In this document: in pieces, positions 1 through 8,167 of the stretch
How the letters are laid out: every line of letters begins with the position of its first letter
Numbering within the stretch: position 1 is the first letter of the stretch
From: a bacterium
GTDB lineage: Bacteria; B130-G9
DNA: 8,845 nt
Assembly: GCA_021160245.1 (NCBI GenBank)
Contig: JAGHCW010000141.1
Span: forward strand, 1 to 8,845
Reading direction: 5' to 3'
The notes under the pieces: generated by a model
Told to the model about the DNA's origin: nothing
What the model saw: the letters and a program-made list of their open reading frames with translations, nothing else
Databases searched by the model: none
Position numbers and translations under genes: made by a program

Positions 1-2359
1 CAAACCCGGTTACGCCGTCACAGACTGCTTCCGGCAGCCCCCCGGCATCCGAGACTACTGTGGGTAAACCCATTGCCTGGGCCTCGAGGCAAGAGGCGCA
101 AAGCCCCTCGCACACGCTGGTCAACAAGAAGATGTCCGACTTGCTGAGAATCTCCTGAAGCTTCTTATAAGGCTGAAAGCCACGCAGCGACACCAGTTCC
201 GCGATCCCAAGGTCATCTATCGTATACTCGATCCACTGCCGCTGCGGACCATCGCCTAATATGGTATGCCTGAATCTCACCCCCCGGTCGGCAAGCAACC
301 GCAGTGCTTGAAGCGAATACTCAAACCCCTTGGCCCACCAGAGAGACGCCACAGTCACAATCTGGCAGACGTCCGAACTATACCCTGAGTTAAGGCTCGC
401 CCTGAAGATCGAAGGATCGAGAGAATCTTTTACCACGCACACCGTCGCGCGTTGACCAAGCAGCCGGCGAACATCGGCCTTCACAGCACAGGAAACAACG
501 TGGAATCCATCAACCGACCTGCATAGATCATTCCGTTGCGATCTAGACAAGCCCTTCCACGCCAGGAGGTCGTGCCCCCTGAAGCTCTGCACTATCGCGG
601 TCGAGACAGTTTTTTTCAGCGCGACCACAGGACCAAACCTAAGCGAGGTGTGACCGAACTGGAAATGGACCACATCGAAAGCCCTCCCCGCAAATGGAAG
701 CAACCTGTTTAGACCGTCCAGCACAGCTCTCAAATCTGAGCAATTCCTTAGTATAGCCCACAAGACCTGCTGCGTTCGAATCGGATGCACAATGAGCGCT
801 CGTCCAGCAGCGAGCAGCAATCTTATAAGGCCAACCGAGTTATTCCAGTGCCCGAAGTAATGAACCTTGAACTCCTCCTCCGGTCTGGTCTCTACTGTGC
901 TGAAACGCCTACCCGGCCCGTCAGCAAAAACCGTTACATTGTGGCCATGTTCTGCCATTCTTCGGGCAGTGCACACAATTCCCATCTTCCCGTCGTCTGG
1001 AAATGATCCCATGATAAGCGCGACTTTCAGAGGCTTAAGACCGGATTGCGACTGTTTTATGGAGCGCCGATCGGACCAATGAGACTTAGACGGGGCGAGT
1101 GATACTGATCCGTCTCCTGGTCGGCCCCGGCGTAGGCTCCGCCAGTAGGCCAGACAACTACGCACGAGCTTAATTGACCTCAAGCAAGCTGAAATCCTTG
1201 CGAGCTGACGCCAACTCGAACGCTCCAAGATTGCTGACGGACGGAGGCAAATCAATCTCATAAGCCAGAAATATGCATGCCAAGGTCGTCCCCTAGAAAC
1301 GGCTAAATTGAGGATGCCAGAACGAAGCGCCACAAGATGTGAATTGAGGATCTTTCGGCTGGCTAGTTGGTTTGAGCTTTTCTGGGCCGCTTGAACGAAC
1401 GTCTTCCAGACCACGTCCACATCATCTGCTGAGAGGACATCGCTGCCTGAGTTAGCACAGAATAAGTCAGGATAGACTGCCGAAAAAATGTAGTACCACG
1501 TGCCACGCTGTTCGAATACTGAAGACCAATAATCGATCGCCTTAACCCAGGCCGTGACGGCTGACTGCCTCTCTCCCCGGCGGAACCAGCCCGCCCCAGC
1601 GCCAATCCATGCTTTTGCGTATCTCTCGTAAGCACGCAGTTCGTGCTTCCTGGCCGTCCCCATCGCACCGAAATAGCGGTCGAGCATCATCACATGAGAG
1701 TTCAAGATCTGCTCCGGGCCTCGCCATCTGCTCTCGACACATCCCCGTACTGTCGCCACGACTTGCCGAATCCGTATAGGTTGACACCCAGCCCTTAGCA
1801 GCCGCCACCAAAAATCCCTGTCCTCGCCTGATGCTAGCGATTCATCAAATCCTCCCACGCTTACCGCCCAGCTCCTCCTGAGCGCTACAGAGCAGATGGC
1901 AAACATCCCAAGCGCTAGTGCGCCGGCAAGCTGCTCTAGCTCTGGTCCCCTTAAAAGCTTCCTCATTTTCGTGTGCTGACTAACACCTTCCCAGGCACCG
2001 TAGCACAGCCCCGCGTCTGGGTGTCGCTCCAATGCTCCAGCTTGCATCTCTGCCTTTCTCGGCATGAATGTGTCGTCAGAATCAAGGAAGCATATATACT
2101 TGCCGCGCGATGCATGCAGCCCAGCATTCCGGAACGCGCTTACACCGCGATTCTCCTGCCGGACGATCTTGATTCGGCCTTCATATTGGGTGAGCACCTG
2201 CGCGGTACCATCGGTCGAGCCGTCGTCAACGACGATGACCTCGACCTCTTTAAGCGTTTGTGCAAGAGCGCTCTCGATGGCATCCGCAACGTGCTTCTCG
2301 TCGTTATAAACAGGAATTATGATGCTGACAATGGGCTCGTGTTCCGTTTGGCTCGCCAT
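1..2359 (-). CDS. Bifunctional GT2-GT4 glycosyltransferase fusion, C-terminus cut by window edge
   Basis: Read on the minus strand from ATG at 2359, the frame stays open for 786 codons to the left edge. Residues about 10-210 form a GT-A (family GT2) domain: SIIIPVYND at 12-20, VVDDGSTDGT at 43-52, the metal-binding LDSDD at 92-96, and GEDRDFWW at 178-185. Residues about 235-400 are helical and Trp/Arg-rich, like the C-terminal part of many GT2 enzymes. A hydrophilic linker (about 408-441) follows. Residues 444 onward form a GT-B (family GT4) domain: KVALIMGSFP at 445-454, SFRGHD at 592-597, WAKGF at 675-679, GDGP at 702-705, and E751-x7-E759 in the nucleotide-sugar site. Perhaps 40-60 residues are missing at the end. 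Each half should transfer a sugar from a nucleotide donor at the cytoplasmic membrane face; donors and acceptors are unknown. AGGAGAG lies 11 bases before the start. The gene begins 31 bases after the pyruvyl transferase stop. No Shine-Dalgarno sequence precedes the possible internal starts M367 or M450, so I favour one polypeptide. Confidence 0.88.
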   Translation of the reverse strand, partial: MASQTEHEPIVSIIIPVYNDEKHVADAIESALAQTLKEVEVIVVDDGSTDGTAQVLTQYEGRIKIVRQENRGVSAFRNAGLHASRGKYICFLDSDDTFMPRKAEMQAGALERHPDAGLCYGAWEGVSQHTKMRKLLRGPELEQLAGALALGMFAICSVALRRSWAVSVGGFDESLASGEDRDFWWRLLRAGCQPIRIRQVVATVRGCVESRWRGPEQILNSHVMMLDRYFGAMGTARKHELRAYERYAKAWIGAGAGWFRRGERQSAVTAWVKAIDYWSSVFEQRGTWYYIFSAVYPDLFCANSGSDVLSADDVDVVWKTFVQAAQKSSNQLASRKILNSHLVALRSGILNLAVSRGRPWHAYFWLMRLICLRPSAILERSSWRQLARISACLRSIKLVRSCLAYWRSLRRGRPGDGSVSLAPSKSHWSDRRSIKQSQSGLKPLKVALIMGSFPDDGKMGIVCTARRMAEHGHNVTVFADGPGRRFSTVETRPEEEFKVHYFGHWNNSVGLIRLLLAAGRALIVHPIRTQQVLWAILRNCSDLRAVLDGLNRLLPFAGRAFDVVHFQFGHTSLRFGPVVALKKTVSTAIVQSFRGHDLLAWKGLSRSQRNDLCRSVDGFHVVSCAVKADVRRLLGQRATVCVVKDSLDPSIFRASLNSGYSSDVCQIVTVASLWWAKGFEYSLQALRLLADRGVRFRHTILGDGPQRQWIEYTIDDLGIAELVSLRGFQPYKKLQEILSKSDIFLLTSVCEGLCASCLEAQAMGLPTVVSDAGGLPEAVCDGVTGF

Positions 2360-2390
2360 GTCGTGATTGTCTCTCCTGTTCGCTGGAGGT

Positions 2391-3512
2391 TCAGTGCTCA
2401 TCTTTGATCATGTCGGAGATCGACTTGGCGCGCCTAACCAAAAGCTGCTTGTAATGCAACACGCGCTCCTGCATTTTCTCCTGAATGGACGTGCGCTTTG
2501 ACCTAATCAACTGGATCATGTCCATCAGTTCGGCAGGATTTAATGAATCAGACCTGACATTGAACTCCTCCATATCTAAGGAAGCCATGAAATCCCTGCA
2601 CTTCGGTCTGTATTCTATCATAATGGAGGGGACGCCAGCGCAAATGGCACAAACAACAGCATGGAGCTTCATCCCTATAAACACTGTGCAGCGCTCGCAA
2701 AGGTCAAGCGCTTGCTCCGTATCATTAGTGATCATGTGAATCTTGGGGTCCGTTATCCCAGTCAACTCTGCCAGCCTGACTGTTATGTCATAATCAATTG
2801 GCCAAACACACAAGTAAAGTATATGCCATCCATCAGCGAGAGCTTTTATGGAGATTTGGGCCATCTTCTGAAGCATGTCCTCCTCAGAGCCCCACACATT
2901 TCCACGTGATGTGCCGATATTGATGCCAAGCGTTTTCGTTTCACCGTTGGTCTTATACGAGTCCCTGGCGAGCACAAGCGCCGAATCACCAACAACCTCC
3001 ACGTCTTGAAGCCCCGCTTGCTTTAGCAAATCAGCGCTCATCGGGCCACGAACGCCCACAAATCGACACTGCTTCAAAAGCCCAATCCACGCTCGTAAAT
3101 CTGCTCCCCAGCCGTCGCGGCCTTCCCAGAACTCTGGATTAGCAACGCCTGTGCCTAAGCAGAAGACCGGAGAACACTCGGCGAGCAGTCGTGCGAGCTT
3201 ATATTCATAGCCCTTGGCTCTGTTTATCAGGGTACCACCGCCTAAACATCCCGCCTGAAAAACGTCTCTTCTGGCAATCCTCCTGTGGAGATCTCTTCTT
3301 TTCTTAGAAAGACTTACAAAGGGCAAAACATGATAGTCAGGGAATAGCCTCTTGTGCGCCTCATACAACATCTCGTCGCCCAGGTTTTCGTGGCCTTGCC
3401 AACCTATGTAGGCAATTCGCTTGCGAAGGGGGTTGCCTAGTTCCCAATATCTTTTGGCTCGTTGGACAAATCTCATTGGCCACATGTTGAGGTTTATCCT
3501 TTCATTGGCCAC
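2391..3512 (-). CDS. Polysaccharide pyruvyl transferase family protein
   Basis: A 373-residue member of the polysaccharide pyruvyl transferase family (CsaB/WcaK/ExoV-like). Such enzymes move a pyruvyl group from phosphoenolpyruvate to a sugar of a glycan or lipid-linked precursor, giving an acidic ketal. Visible marks are IGWQGHENLGDEML at 36-49, GCLGGGTLINR at 88-98, GVRGPMSADLL at 153-163, VVGDSALVL at 173-181, GINIGTSRGN at 196-205, and the family's C-terminal block FIGMKLHAVV at 278-287 followed by AGVPSIMIEYRPKCRDFM at 292-309. The assigned start is GTG at 3512, inside the end of the upstream ABC gene (11-base overlap), which suggests translational coupling. No clear Shine-Dalgarno precedes this GTG. 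ATG at codon 10 (3485), with AAAGGA 11 bases upstream, is a reasonable alternative and would remove only nine weakly conserved residues. The family assignment is firm, the exact acceptor unknown; some relatives are annotated by family without a proven pyruvylation activity. Confidence 0.9.
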   Translation of the reverse strand: MANERINLNMWPMRFVQRAKRYWELGNPLRKRIAYIGWQGHENLGDEMLYEAHKRLFPDYHVLPFVSLSKKRRDLHRRIARRDVFQAGCLGGGTLINRAKGYEYKLARLLAECSPVFCLGTGVANPEFWEGRDGWGADLRAWIGLLKQCRFVGVRGPMSADLLKQAGLQDVEVVGDSALVLARDSYKTNGETKTLGINIGTSRGNVWGSEEDMLQKMAQISIKALADGWHILYLCVWPIDYDITVRLAELTGITDPKIHMITNDTEQALDLCERCTVFIGMKLHAVVCAICAGVPSIMIEYRPKCRDFMASLDMEEFNVRSDSLNPAELMDMIQLIRSKRTSIQEKMQERVLHYKQLLVRRAKSISDMIKDEH

Positions 3513-5286
3513 TAAGAGTATTGCGCATCGCCGCGGTCCCGCCGCTCGGCCGCTGCTGGGCTTTCCATAGATCCTGATACGTTTGACTTATCCTCAACAG
3601 CTCGTCATGCGGGGCAAACGCCTCGATGGTTCCATTCGCTAAGACAGCTATCTTGTCGGCCTTGCGGAGGGTGGAGAGGCGGTGCGCGACGACGAGCGTG
3701 GTTCTGCTCTCCATGAGTTTGTCCAGCGCGTCCTGCACCTGTTTCTCGGTCACGGAATCCAGGGCGCTGGTTGCCTCGTCCAAGAGGAGTATCGGTGCGT
3801 TCTTGAGGATGGCCCTGGCGATGTTGATGCGCTGCTTCTGGCCGACCGAGACGCCGGTTCCGCCGGCGCCGATGACAGTTTCATACTTCTCTGGCCAAGA
3901 CATTATGTCATCGTGGATGTTCGCCGCCCTGGCCGCCTCATGGACCTCATGGTCAGTCGCGTCGGGCTTACCATACTTTATATTGTCGAGGACTGAGACG
4001 TTAAACAAAAATGGCTCCTGAGTAACAATCGCAATACTATCCATTAGGTCTGCGAGTTTTATTCGCTTTACATCAGTCTTATCGAACAGAATCCTACCCT
4101 CTTTAGCATCATAAAACCGGACTGCCAGGTTTAGCAAGGTCGTCTTGCCGACGCCAGAGCCGCCTACAACGCCGATCGTCTCGCCCGCGCGGATCTTGAG
4201 GTTCACGTTTTTCAAGACGGGCGCGGCTGTGTCATAGGAATAAGACACGTTCTCGAATAATATCTCGTGAGGTGTAGTTCTCAACGGCACTGCGTCCTTA
4301 GCATCCTTGATCTCTGGCTCAGTTGCAAGAAATTCGTCAACACGGTCGAGGTTAACCGTTTGGGTCTTGATCACCGTATATGCATGCATGATGGTTCGCA
4401 TTGGCTGGAACAACTGGTTCAGGATCAGGATGAAAGCTATCAGAACGGGCCACTCGATGGCTCGCTCGATCATCTTCATGCCGCCAAATACAATGACAAA
4501 CACGACCCCGAAGCCGGCGAGGCTGTCAAAGATGACGCCGGACAGTGATCGTGTTCGAACCATCTTCATGATCTGTTTGAACAGTTCATCAGCGGAGTTC
4601 TCGCAAGCCTTGGCTTCCCTTTCTTCGCCTCGAAATGCCTTGACTACTCTTATGCCGGAGAGAATCTGCATCAAGAGGTCCATTATCCGCACGCCATGGA
4701 ATCGGGCACTTCTCGATGCCTCAAGAAGTCTCGTGCCGATGTGCATTATGGGGTAGATGACTAGGGGAAGCGCTACTAGGCCCCAGAGCGCTAGACTTGC
4801 GTCCATTCTCAGAGCGGCGATAAGCAGCCCGCCGGCCCCAAGTAGGGAGGTAACGATTGAGCAGGTGGTGTCAACTAGTAGCCGAAGTGAAGTTACATCT
4901 CCACTCGTAGCTTTGATGATGTCGCCTTGCGTGTTCTTGTCAAAATAACTGAGCGAAAGCTTGAGCATGTGCTGAACCATCTTGAGGCGAAGATGCAGCT
5001 CGATTCTCCTGCCGAGTTCAGTCTGAAGGACCTTAGAGAAGTAGTCCGCGATGCTGCGCCCTATCCAACACGCAAAGATAAGCCCTGCTGCGCCCCAGAG
5101 CATTGTGGTAACATTTGCTCCACTGTCTGTTCGCAAGGACTCCATGACATCTTCTAGGAAAGTCTTGACCATCCAGAGATAGCCGATCTGAAGGGCTGAC
5201 CTTGCAACACCGCTCCCAATGAACCAAACTGTTATGCGCCGATGCCGCCACATCAATTTGAATGCTACTAGCATTTTCTCGAACAT
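3502..5286 (-). CDS. MsbA-like ABC exporter (fused membrane and ATPase domains)
   Basis: A 594-residue half-transporter expected to act as a homodimer in the inner membrane. Residues 1-320 carry six likely membrane helices (about 18-38, 61-82, 137-160, 163-185, 249-272 and 279-300). Residues 340-580 form the ATPase: Walker A GGSGVGKT at 375-382, Q-loop Gln423, signature VSVGQ at 479-483, Walker B ILLLDE at 499-504 with the catalytic Glu504, and the H-loop His535. The layout and length match MsbA-type lipid/glycolipid flippases. Its place between Kdo genes and glycan-modifying enzymes suggests it flips a lipid A-core or lipid-linked glycan, but a peptide or drug exporter of the same family cannot be excluded. 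The signature departs from LSGGQ, and the usual ERG just before it is AGG (474-476). The last 15 or so residues form a non-conserved tail that overlaps the next gene. The start ATG lies two bases after the stop of a possible small ORF. Confidence 0.92.
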   Translation of the reverse strand: MFEKMLVAFKLMWRHRRITVWFIGSGVARSALQIGYLWMVKTFLEDVMESLRTDSGANVTTMLWGAAGLIFACWIGRSIADYFSKVLQTELGRRIELHLRLKMVQHMLKLSLSYFDKNTQGDIIKATSGDVTSLRLLVDTTCSIVTSLLGAGGLLIAALRMDASLALWGLVALPLVIYPIMHIGTRLLEASRSARFHGVRIMDLLMQILSGIRVVKAFRGEEREAKACENSADELFKQIMKMVRTRSLSGVIFDSLAGFGVVFVIVFGGMKMIERAIEWPVLIAFILILNQLFQPMRTIMHAYTVIKTQTVNLDRVDEFLATEPEIKDAKDAVPLRTTPHEILFENVSYSYDTAAPVLKNVNLKIRAGETIGVVGGSGVGKTTLLNLAVRFYDAKEGRILFDKTDVKRIKLADLMDSIAIVTQEPFLFNVSVLDNIKYGKPDATDHEVHEAARAANIHDDIMSWPEKYETVIGAGGTGVSVGQKQRINIARAILKNAPILLLDEATSALDSVTEKQVQDALDKLMESRTTLVVAHRLSTLRKADKIAVLANGTIEAFAPHDELLRISQTYQDLWKAQQRPSGGTAAMRNTLSGQ

Positions 5287-5393: not shown

Positions 5394-6398
5394 CTATTTC
5401 ATCCCCTGCTTTATCAAGTCGTGTAATCGCAGCAGCCCAACTACCCGGTCCGAATCCTCCTCGACCACCGGCAAAACCGATATTTGGCTCGGACGGTCCT
5501 CCATCTGGTTGAGAGCGCGAGACGCAAGCTCCGAGGCGCAGACACGAATGGGGTCTCGGGTCATAGCGGTTGATATTGGCTCGTCGATCATCTTAGCGAG
5601 GTCATCCTCGAGCAAAAGCCGACGGACGTCGCCATCTGTTACAATACCTATAAGAACGTCACCATCGCCGACAACACACGCCGCGCCGTGCGGTCGCTCG
5701 CTCATCGCAACTACTGTCTGCCTAATGGTGGTCTCAGGGGAAATGAGAGCAATGTATCCCCTCTCTATCATCACCTCGGAAACCGTCATCAAAAGCCGTC
5801 TGCCCAATGTCCCCGCCGGATGAGACATCGCGAAATCCGCCTCCTTGAAGCCCTTGGCCACAATTAGCGCCGCTGCCAGAGCATCGCCCATCGCAAGCGT
5901 CGCGGTTGTGCTAGTTGTCGGGGCAAGGCCCAGCGGACAGGCTTCCTTTGTTACCTCGAGATCAAGCACCACATCCGCAACCTTAGCGAGCGAGGATTTG
6001 GCTCCGCTTGTAATTGCAATCACCTGCACTTCTCGCTGCTTGAGGACTTTCGCCGGCCTGATCAGCTCCGCATTGCCCCCTGAATGAGAAATGGCGATCA
6101 GAATGTCACCAGGGCTTATCAAGCCCATATCCCCGTGGAGCGCCTCAACCGGATGAATGAAGTAGGCCGGCGTGCCCGTGCTTGAGAACGTAGCCGCTAT
6201 CTTCCGACCCACAAGCCCAGATTTCCCAAGGCCCAAAATGTATATTCTCCCCGAGCTGCTCACAATCATCCGGAGAGCAGATAAGAAGCTGTCGTCGATT
6301 CGCTCGATTAGATGCTCAACCGCCGAGGCCTCCTCCCGAAGCAAGCGCCTCGCCTCATCCATCGACTTAAGAAGCGTGGGCTCCGAGATGGTTCTCAA
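5394..6398 (-). CDS. kdsD: D-arabinose 5-phosphate isomerase (KdsD/KpsF family)
   Basis: A 334-residue cytoplasmic enzyme that interconverts D-ribulose 5-phosphate and D-arabinose 5-phosphate, the first step of Kdo synthesis. An N-terminal SIS domain (about 45-185) shows GLGKSG at 56-61, the ALHGD block at 86-90, SHSGGN at 104-109, EACPLGLAPTTST at 152-164 and SHPAGTLGRRL at 192-202. Lys59, His88, Glu111, Glu152 and His193 sit at the same numbers as the active-site residues I recall for E. coli KdsD. Two CBS domains follow (about 207-265 and 275-330, ending in GLLRLHDLI). The length is close to the E. coli enzyme (328). The start is TTG at 6398, backed by a strong GGAGG nine bases upstream; the next in-frame ATG (codon 14) has no such site. 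It lies 16 bases after kdsA, whose product uses arabinose 5-phosphate, so the two genes form consecutive steps. It could equally be named kpsF if this is a capsule cluster. Confidence 0.94.
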   Translation of the reverse strand: MRTISEPTLLKSMDEARRLLREEASAVEHLIERIDDSFLSALRMIVSSSGRIYILGLGKSGLVGRKIAATFSSTGTPAYFIHPVEALHGDMGLISPGDILIAISHSGGNAELIRPAKVLKQREVQVIAITSGAKSSLAKVADVVLDLEVTKEACPLGLAPTTSTTATLAMGDALAAALIVAKGFKEADFAMSHPAGTLGRRLLMTVSEVMIERGYIALISPETTIRQTVVAMSERPHGAACVVGDGDVLIGIVTDGDVRRLLLEDDLAKMIDEPISTAMTRDPIRVCASELASRALNQMEDRPSQISVLPVVEEDSDRVVGLLRLHDLIKQGMK

Positions 6399-6414: not shown

Positions 6415-7212
6415 TCACTGGCAGATAGCCTCGTTGATCCTAAAACAGTTGGAGACTATGCGGCGGAATGTATCTGGTGTAATCATGTTCGGGCCGTCGC
6501 ACGGGGCGTTGTCCGGATCGTCATGTACCTCGAAGAACAGCCCGTCACAGCCCGCTGCCACAGCGGCATAAGCTAACGGCTCCACAAACTCCCTCGCGCC
6601 GCCCGATGAACCTCCAGCTGCGCCTGGGAGCTGCACCGAGTGCGTTGCGTCAAAAATCACGGGCACTCCGATCTGCTTCATGATGGAAATACTGCGCATG
6701 TCAACAACCAGATTTCCGTAGCCAAATGTCGAGCCGCGCTCAGTCAAATAGACATCCTGATTGCCCGTGCTCTTCACCTTCTCAACGCTGAAACGCATAT
6801 CAGCGGGCGACATGAATTGGCCCTTCTTTATGTTCACCGCAAGGCCCGTCTTGCCCGCCTCAACCAGCAAGTCCGTTTGTCGGCAGAGGAAAGCGGGAAT
6901 CTGGAGCACGTCAACGACATTGGCCACATCGGCTACTTGGCCGGTCTCGTGGACGTCCGTTAGAACGCGTATCCCGAGCTGTTCTTTGACGTGCATCAGG
7001 GCCTCCAGGCCGTGCTCCATGCCGATGCCTCTGAATGAGCTGACCGAGGTTCTATTCGCCTTGTCGAACGACGATTTGAAAGTAAATGACATTCCGAGCG
7101 ACCCTAGTGCCTCTTGGATCATCTCAGCGACCATCAAAGCGTGGTCTTGGGATTCGATTACGCATGGGCCGGCTATGATAAAAAGTGGCCCTCTCTTCTT
7201 GAGGTCTGGCAT
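6415..7212 (-). CDS. kdsA: 3-deoxy-8-phosphooctulonate synthase (Kdo-8-phosphate synthase), metal-dependent class
   Basis: A 265-residue cytoplasmic TIM-barrel aldolase that condenses phosphoenolpyruvate with D-arabinose 5-phosphate to give Kdo 8-phosphate. Family blocks in order are AGPCVIES at 14-21, FKSSFDKANRTS at 45-56, SFRG at 59-62, LTDVHE at 84-89, QIPAFLCRQTDLL at 104-116, VNIKKGQF at 126-133, LTERGSTFGYGNLVVDMRS at 156-174, DATHSVQLPG at 188-197 and FFEVHDDPDNAPCDGP at 226-241. Cys17, His191, Glu228 and Asp239 match the metal ligands known for the Aquifex aeolicus enzyme. The E. coli type has Asn in place of this Cys, so this is the metal-dependent class. The start ATG has AGGGGAA eight bases upstream. 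It lies 16 bases after the epimerase gene and 16 before kdsD. DAHP synthase is a distant relative, but the KANRTS block and the short length favour KdsA. Confidence 0.96.
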   Translation of the reverse strand: MPDLKKRGPLFIIAGPCVIESQDHALMVAEMIQEALGSLGMSFTFKSSFDKANRTSVSSFRGIGMEHGLEALMHVKEQLGIRVLTDVHETGQVADVANVVDVLQIPAFLCRQTDLLVEAGKTGLAVNIKKGQFMSPADMRFSVEKVKSTGNQDVYLTERGSTFGYGNLVVDMRSISIMKQIGVPVIFDATHSVQLPGAAGGSSGGAREFVEPLAYAAVAAGCDGLFFEVHDDPDNAPCDGPNMITPDTFRRIVSNCFRINEAICQ

Positions 7213-7228: not shown

Positions 7229-8167
7229 TTATTTATTGCTATTCAACAGCCATTCGCAGTAACGCTCAATCCCGTCTTCAACGCTCACTTTCGGCTCGTA
7301 ATTGAGCAGCTTCTTTGCTTGCTCGATATCCGCGAGCGAGTGCTTCACGTCGCCGGGCCTCGAGTCAACATAAGTGGCCTGCACGTCTCGTTTTAGTACT
7401 CTGCAGAGAACAGCCACCAACTCGTTTACGGTTATCCTGCTGTTGCACGCTATGTTGAAAACTCCCCCGGCGCAATCCGGCGCGGAAAGGCCTGCTAGGT
7501 TCGCGTTCACAACATTCTCTACATAAGAGAAATCGCGAGTCTGCTCCCCGTCCCCGTATATCGTGGGCGAATCGCCCGCAAGGATAGCGGTGGCGAACTT
7601 TGGCACAACAGCAGCGTACTGAGAAGTTGGGTCCTGCCTCGGGCCAAAGACGTTGAAATACCGCAGGGAAACAGTCTCAAGTCCGAAGAGCGAGAAGAAG
7701 ACCCGGCAGTAGTACTCGCCTGTCAACTTCGAGACCGCATAAGGGGACAATGGAGAAGGAATCATCGTTTCGACCTTCGGAAGAACCTTCGAATCCCCAT
7801 AGACGGAAGATGAAGATGCGTAAACAAAGCGCTTGACGCCTGCCTCCTTCGCGGCCCACAACATATTCAGCGTGCCCCCGACATTGACTGTATTCGATGC
7901 AATGGGGTCTCTGACTGAACGAGGCACGGATGGAAGAGCCCCCTGATGCAGAACGAATTTCACCCCTGATACGGCAGCCTTGCAGACGGAAAGGTCGGAT
8001 ATGCTCCCCTTGATCAGCTCCACTTTATTCATATATGGCGCGATATTCTCCCGTTTGCCGGTGCTGAAATCATCCAACACTCTGACTTGCTTGCCCTCAG
8101 AAACCAAACGCTGGACGATGTTGGAGCCAATAAAGCCCGCTCCGCCAGTTACCAGATAGAGTTCCAT
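7229..8167 (-). CDS. NAD-dependent sugar-nucleotide epimerase (extended SDR, WbpP/Gne-like)
   Basis: A 312-residue extended short-chain dehydrogenase/reductase. The NAD site TGGAGFIG is at 7-14, and Asp32/Asp33 end the second strand as in NAD-binding members. A serine cluster (118-121) and the Tyr143-xxx-Lys147 pair of SPYAVSK form the catalytic set. RYFNVFGPRQDPTSQYAAVV at 169-188 and GDGEQTRDFSYVENVV at 205-220 resemble UDP-GlcNAc 4-epimerases such as WbpP, which makes 4-epimerisation of a UDP-N-acetylhexosamine or UDP-hexose the best guess. UDP-glucose or UDP-glucuronate epimerase activity cannot be excluded from sequence. It probably supplies a sugar nucleotide to the transferases downstream. 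The start ATG has AGGAG five bases upstream (8173-8177), a strong site. It appears to be the first gene of the leftward operon, as it is followed upstream by a noncoding region and a divergent gene. Confidence 0.92.
   Translation of the reverse strand: MELYLVTGGAGFIGSNIVQRLVSEGKQVRVLDDFSTGKRENIAPYMNKVELIKGSISDLSVCKAAVSGVKFVLHQGALPSVPRSVRDPIASNTVNVGGTLNMLWAAKEAGVKRFVYASSSSVYGDSKVLPKVETMIPSPLSPYAVSKLTGEYYCRVFFSLFGLETVSLRYFNVFGPRQDPTSQYAAVVPKFATAILAGDSPTIYGDGEQTRDFSYVENVVNANLAGLSAPDCAGGVFNIACNSRITVNELVAVLCRVLKRDVQATYVDSRPGDVKHSLADIEQAKKLLNYEPKVSVEDGIERYCEWLLNSNK

Follow-up and report, generated by a model that had tools for sequence, protein, structure and literature searches.

The locus and its gene neighbourhood

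The window, the whole 8,845 bp stretch of DNA that was analysed, is a complete contig (C73) of a 3.43 Mb genome that is in 244 contigs, 94.8% complete and probably metagenome-derived. Genes are encoded on the minus strand in the order epimerase/dehydratase, KdsA, KdsD, MsbA-like exporter, pyruvyl transferase and then a frame that carries two glycosyltransferase (GT) modules. The features identified are:

7229..8167, minus strand: NAD-dependent nucleotide-sugar epimerase/dehydratase (PF01370, E 3e-57)
6415..7212, minus strand: KDO-8-phosphate synthase, KdsA (TIGR01362, above cut-off)
5394..6398, minus strand: arabinose-5-phosphate isomerase, KdsD/KpsF (TIGR00393, above cut-off)
3502..5286, minus strand: MsbA-like ABC exporter (profile matches; 80% identity to a relative's gene)
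2391..3512, minus strand: polysaccharide pyruvyl transferase family protein, directly upstream of the fusion frame (PF04230, E 3e-22)
1..2401, minus strand: GT2-helical-GT4 fusion open reading frame, cut by the contig end (ATG 2401, or the likelier start ATG 2359)
1755..2359, minus strand: GT2 (GT-A) domain, residues 1 to about 202 counted from ATG 2359 (PF00535, conserved motifs, GT-A structure matches)
1130..1754, minus strand: all-helical middle domain of about 205 residues (alignment A1, a low-confidence model, a weak TPR match in a relative)
1031..1129, minus strand: non-conserved linker of about 33 codons
2..1030, minus strand: GT4 (GT-B) domain with EX7E, without roughly the final 50 residues of the fold (PF00534, BshA/MshA matches)

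The predicted genes of the window constitute a Kdo/LPS-type surface-polysaccharide cluster. The pyruvyl transferase family gene (2391-3512, minus strand) occupies, before the fusion, the position held in the relative G001 by a free GT4 gene, a local gene replacement. We also identified a PIN domain (PF13470), a nuclease-type domain, on the N-terminus of a DegT/DnrJ sugar aminotransferase in two relatives (L034:13435-14982 in G001 and L036:2892-4427 in G002). These proteins are 71% identical across two genera and their genes adjoin kdsD and the ABC exporter. The gene is absent at the corresponding place in the window.

Domains of the fusion frame

The frame lacks stops from ATG 2401 (800 codons) or ATG 2359 (786 codons) to base 2. 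ATG 2359, which has an AGGAG-like site 13 nt upstream, is the more likely start; ATG 2401 has no such site and overlaps the stop of the upstream gene by 11 bp. The encoded protein consists of a GT2 (GT-A) domain, a helical stretch of about 200 residues, a linker of about 30 residues and then a GT4 (GT-B) domain. Both modules were placed in one uninterrupted frame by the open reading frame listing and Pfam. The preliminary description had reported as much: a shared frame of at least 786 codons, ATG 2359, Met367 (1261) and Met450 (1012) in phase, and no stop between the halves. All of this is borne out.

In the GT2 half, Glycos_transf_2 (PF00535) matches residues 12-134 (E 8e-35), and the AlphaFold model has GT-A structure matches to 6p61, WrtF and K4CP (for 6p61, a Foldseek TM score of 0.91 by target length). 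Because the GT4 proteins were misplaced when the entire fusion was aligned with the two GT sets, each half was modelled separately. The motifs VVDDGSTDGT, DSDD (DXD) and ED.D (GEDRD) are present, and are kept in ten family relatives (alignment A1).

The middle domain is common to GT2 proteins of this family (alignment A1). Helices are predicted at 215-410, in a part of the model that is of low confidence, and there is a weak TPR_2 match (E 6e-4) in the middle domain of one relative (L034). Possibly, the domain is TPR-like. A search of 977 frames from other phyla returned only one marginal match, and we consider the predicted domain to be lineage-specific.

In the GT4 half, Pfam matches are to Glyco_transf_4 (residues 464-643, E 6.5e-8) and Glycos_transf_1 (PF00534; residues 666-786, E 1e-25), and Foldseek matches of the AlphaFold model are to the GT-B enzymes BshA and MshA (E 4e-17 to 6e-14). 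The preliminary description held that the key motifs of both domains are intact. This is correct for the GT2 motifs and for the EX7E and donor-site Lys of GT4, but in the usual GRL motif Ser takes the place of Arg here (and Asn does so in the nearest relative). The substitution could be read as a sign that just one module is catalytic and that the other is a degenerate domain for binding an acceptor or a complex, as in EXTL3, where the GT47 domain has no usable donor pocket (PMC9178029). We find this improbable, given that GT4 retains EX7E, the donor-site Lys and the glycine motifs, that the free GT4 homologue of G001 also lacks the Arg, and that the GT2 motifs are invariant.

The contig end cuts the frame after the GT4 donor site, and the C-terminal tail of GT4 lies outside the window. 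With the GT4 tail of a relative as query, we obtained a hit at the extreme end of contig C46 (25369-25515 of 25516, minus strand):

C46:25297-25515, minus strand: probable GT4 tail, resuming about 6 residues after the end of the window

The edge of C46 and the GT4 half in the window match the same protein of a relative (L034 10449-11723), and the orientation is right. Furthermore, C46 and C73 are collinear with one relative locus, G001:C146. On one side of it the counterparts are genes of C73 (epimerase 70%, KdsA 81%, KdsD 66% and ABC exporter 80%), and on the other side, with gene order preserved, genes of C46 (56%, 52% and 40%). Although no DNA overlap of contig ends was found with C46, we strongly infer that its edge carries the tail of the fusion, with about 16 nt unassembled between the contigs. 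Via C46, the fusion would end at about C46:25294, with an asparagine-synthase-like gene after it, and the full protein would be about 865-880 aa.

The junction and the genes of relatives

GT2 homology extends to about codon 421 and GT4 starts at about codon 458, with an unconserved linker between. No in-frame ATG, GTG or TTG was found between codons 414 and 463 (ATG 2401 numbering). The next ATG (464) comes after GT4 beta-1 (residues 459-463), and starting there would remove the first beta strand. A true fusion is thus more probable than an overlooked stop, and a free GT4 would depend on a CTG start or on a compensating error. In the other frames, the only start at the junction is a TTG that has no Shine-Dalgarno site before it, and correcting a single indel would therefore not yield two tidy genes.

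The fusion was seen in one metagenome-derived genome only, and it could be an assembly or base-calling artefact, a missed stop or indel in the linker having joined two separate genes. This would be consistent with the unconserved linker, where many codons are one substitution from a stop, with the stops at codons 438, 448 and 455 in the two alternative frames, and with the separate GT2 and GT4 genes of relatives. However, the candidate starts for GT4 would then be CTG 458 or TTG 441 (in another frame), neither of which has a Shine-Dalgarno site, and the assembly shows clean neighbouring genes and other fused glycosyltransferases. We therefore regard an artefact as unlikely. Codon-preference scores are negative at codons ~341-460 of the fusion frame, which homology indicates to be coding at least to codon 421 despite these scores. 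The weak scores neither prove nor exclude an absorbed spacer.

It is also conceivable that the fusion frame is real and that a free GT4 is made in addition from an internal, non-canonical start. CTG 458, for example, coincides precisely with the expected beginning of a free GT4 (Leu-Lys-Val-Ala-Leu-Ile). With no Shine-Dalgarno site before this codon, and with CTG starts being rare, such a second product is very unlikely.

The phylum is barely sampled, and the comparison set for it consisted of four genomes, all of one family. In G001, G002 and G003 we identified several GT2 proteins that share this middle domain, all of them unfused. In G001 and G002 (L034, L037), GT4 genes occur near the GT2-helical genes in the same kind of cluster as the fusion, but the genes are separate (38-41% identity over GT2 and middle domain, and up to 36% for GT4). 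The preliminary description had named two findings that would jointly speak against a fusion, separate genes in relatives and read evidence of a sequencing error near the junction; the first was found, in three relatives. The nearest and best GT4 match of G001 precedes its GT2 genes instead of following them, so the gene order does not demonstrate a simple stop loss between orthologous neighbours. An 895-aa open frame on G001:C146 was considered as a second fusion and rejected, as it is a long stop-to-stop frame with a gene of 468 aa inside.

No confirmed relative was identified when the whole fusion was searched against genome contigs, and a plasmid search found no place covering 80% of the query. 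The top plasmid places were rejected as fusion precedents, those inspected being separate GT2 and GT4 genes side by side. Among 132 GT2 frames in 80 loci that surround GT2 relatives in other phyla, a single one also has a GT4 (in the opposite order), and six have two or more GT2 matches. The GT2 plus GT4 architecture is a minority one but is not unique.

Proposed function and comparison with multi-module glycosyltransferases

We consider it probable that the frame is a true fusion gene encoding a two-module GT2-helical-GT4 glycosyltransferase, most likely adding two residues to a lipid-linked surface glycan. The gene probably originated by fusion of glycosyltransferase genes that stay separate in relatives. 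In the protein, a GT2 (GT-A) module of the inverting type, with its helical domain, would be followed by a flexible linker and a GT4 (GT-B) module of the retaining type. Each module would have its own donor site, and the two residues would most likely be added to a lipid-linked glycan of the LPS-core or O-antigen type, as the gene neighbourhood suggests. A shared glycan pathway is probable for the two modules, since GT2 and GT4 genes of these types share an LPS-type cluster in the relatives. With regard to the donor configuration, GT2 is an inverting family and GT4 a retaining one, and one linkage of each kind would therefore be expected from the protein. The substrates, the successive action of the modules and the benefit of fusion are inferred.

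A search of the literature collection used for the analysis found no direct precedent for GT2-GT4 fusions. The chondroitin polymerase K4CP/KfoC (PDB 2z86, 2z87) likewise has two GT modules in one polypeptide, and among PDB sequences it is the second GT2 module of this enzyme that matches the GT2 half best (E 4e-36). Unlike the fusion here, both of its modules are GT-A, and it has neither the helical middle domain nor a GT4 module. WbdA and WbbB, of Klebsiella and E. coli O antigens, also have several GT modules per polypeptide and function in O-antigen assembly (PMC11231755). However, their family combinations are different (GT99, GT102 and GT103 in WbbB) and polymerase activity has been shown for them, whereas the protein here is described from its sequence. 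Several GT modules also occur in one protein in PBCV-1 A111/114R (PMC7826918). The exostosins EXT1, EXT2 and EXTL3 (GT47 plus GT64) combine GT-B and GT-A in one chain, as here, but are of other families, have GT-B before GT-A, and function in eukaryotic heparan sulfate synthesis (PMC9178029). Two-module glycosyltransferases are thus well established. The kind of enzyme is already known, and the fusion is a fairly ordinary example of it, set apart by its GT2-first order and by the predicted lineage-specific helical domain.

The preliminary description suggested that the fusion would couple two successive sugar additions and that the linkage may dictate the order of two residues in the glycan. 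By analogy with the exostosins, the best studied GT-A/GT-B fusions, physical linkage alone would neither fix residue order nor channel the chain, because 45-60 Å separate their active sites and chains are thought to move between the two by dissociation (PMC9178029). A bifunctional polymerase that alternates two sugars, with the helical domain holding the lipid-linked chain between the GT-A and GT-B sites, is quite unlikely. If true, it would be a GT2-first combination for which the literature search found no characterised precedent.

Fusions reveal which glycosyltransferases work in the same pathway. The same genome encodes at least four other fused glycosyltransferases, one of which corresponds to split genes in each of the three relatives. 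Comparing this genome and its several fusions with relatives in which the genes are split makes the benefit of fusion testable. Two of these proteins, on C140 (749 aa) and C130 (718 aa), and one in a Zixibacteria MAG (L092), combine the same two families in one frame. Unlike the fusion in the window, they have GT4 first, and the helical middle domain of the family was not detected in them. The halves of the C140 protein (L030:11808-14057, G000:C140) are separate adjacent genes with 55-61% identity in three relatives (L035 11588-12730 and 12727-13788; L038; L039), making it a cleaner case of fused versus split genes than the GT2-helical-GT4 frame. Also among the fused proteins are an 897-aa protein with two GT4 modules (L033:3901-6594, G000:C53) and an 836-aa protein with GT2, CoA_binding_3 and a C-terminal Bac_transf domain, an initiating sugar-phosphate transferase (L032:2037-4544, G000:C105). 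The latter combines initiation and a later step in one chain.
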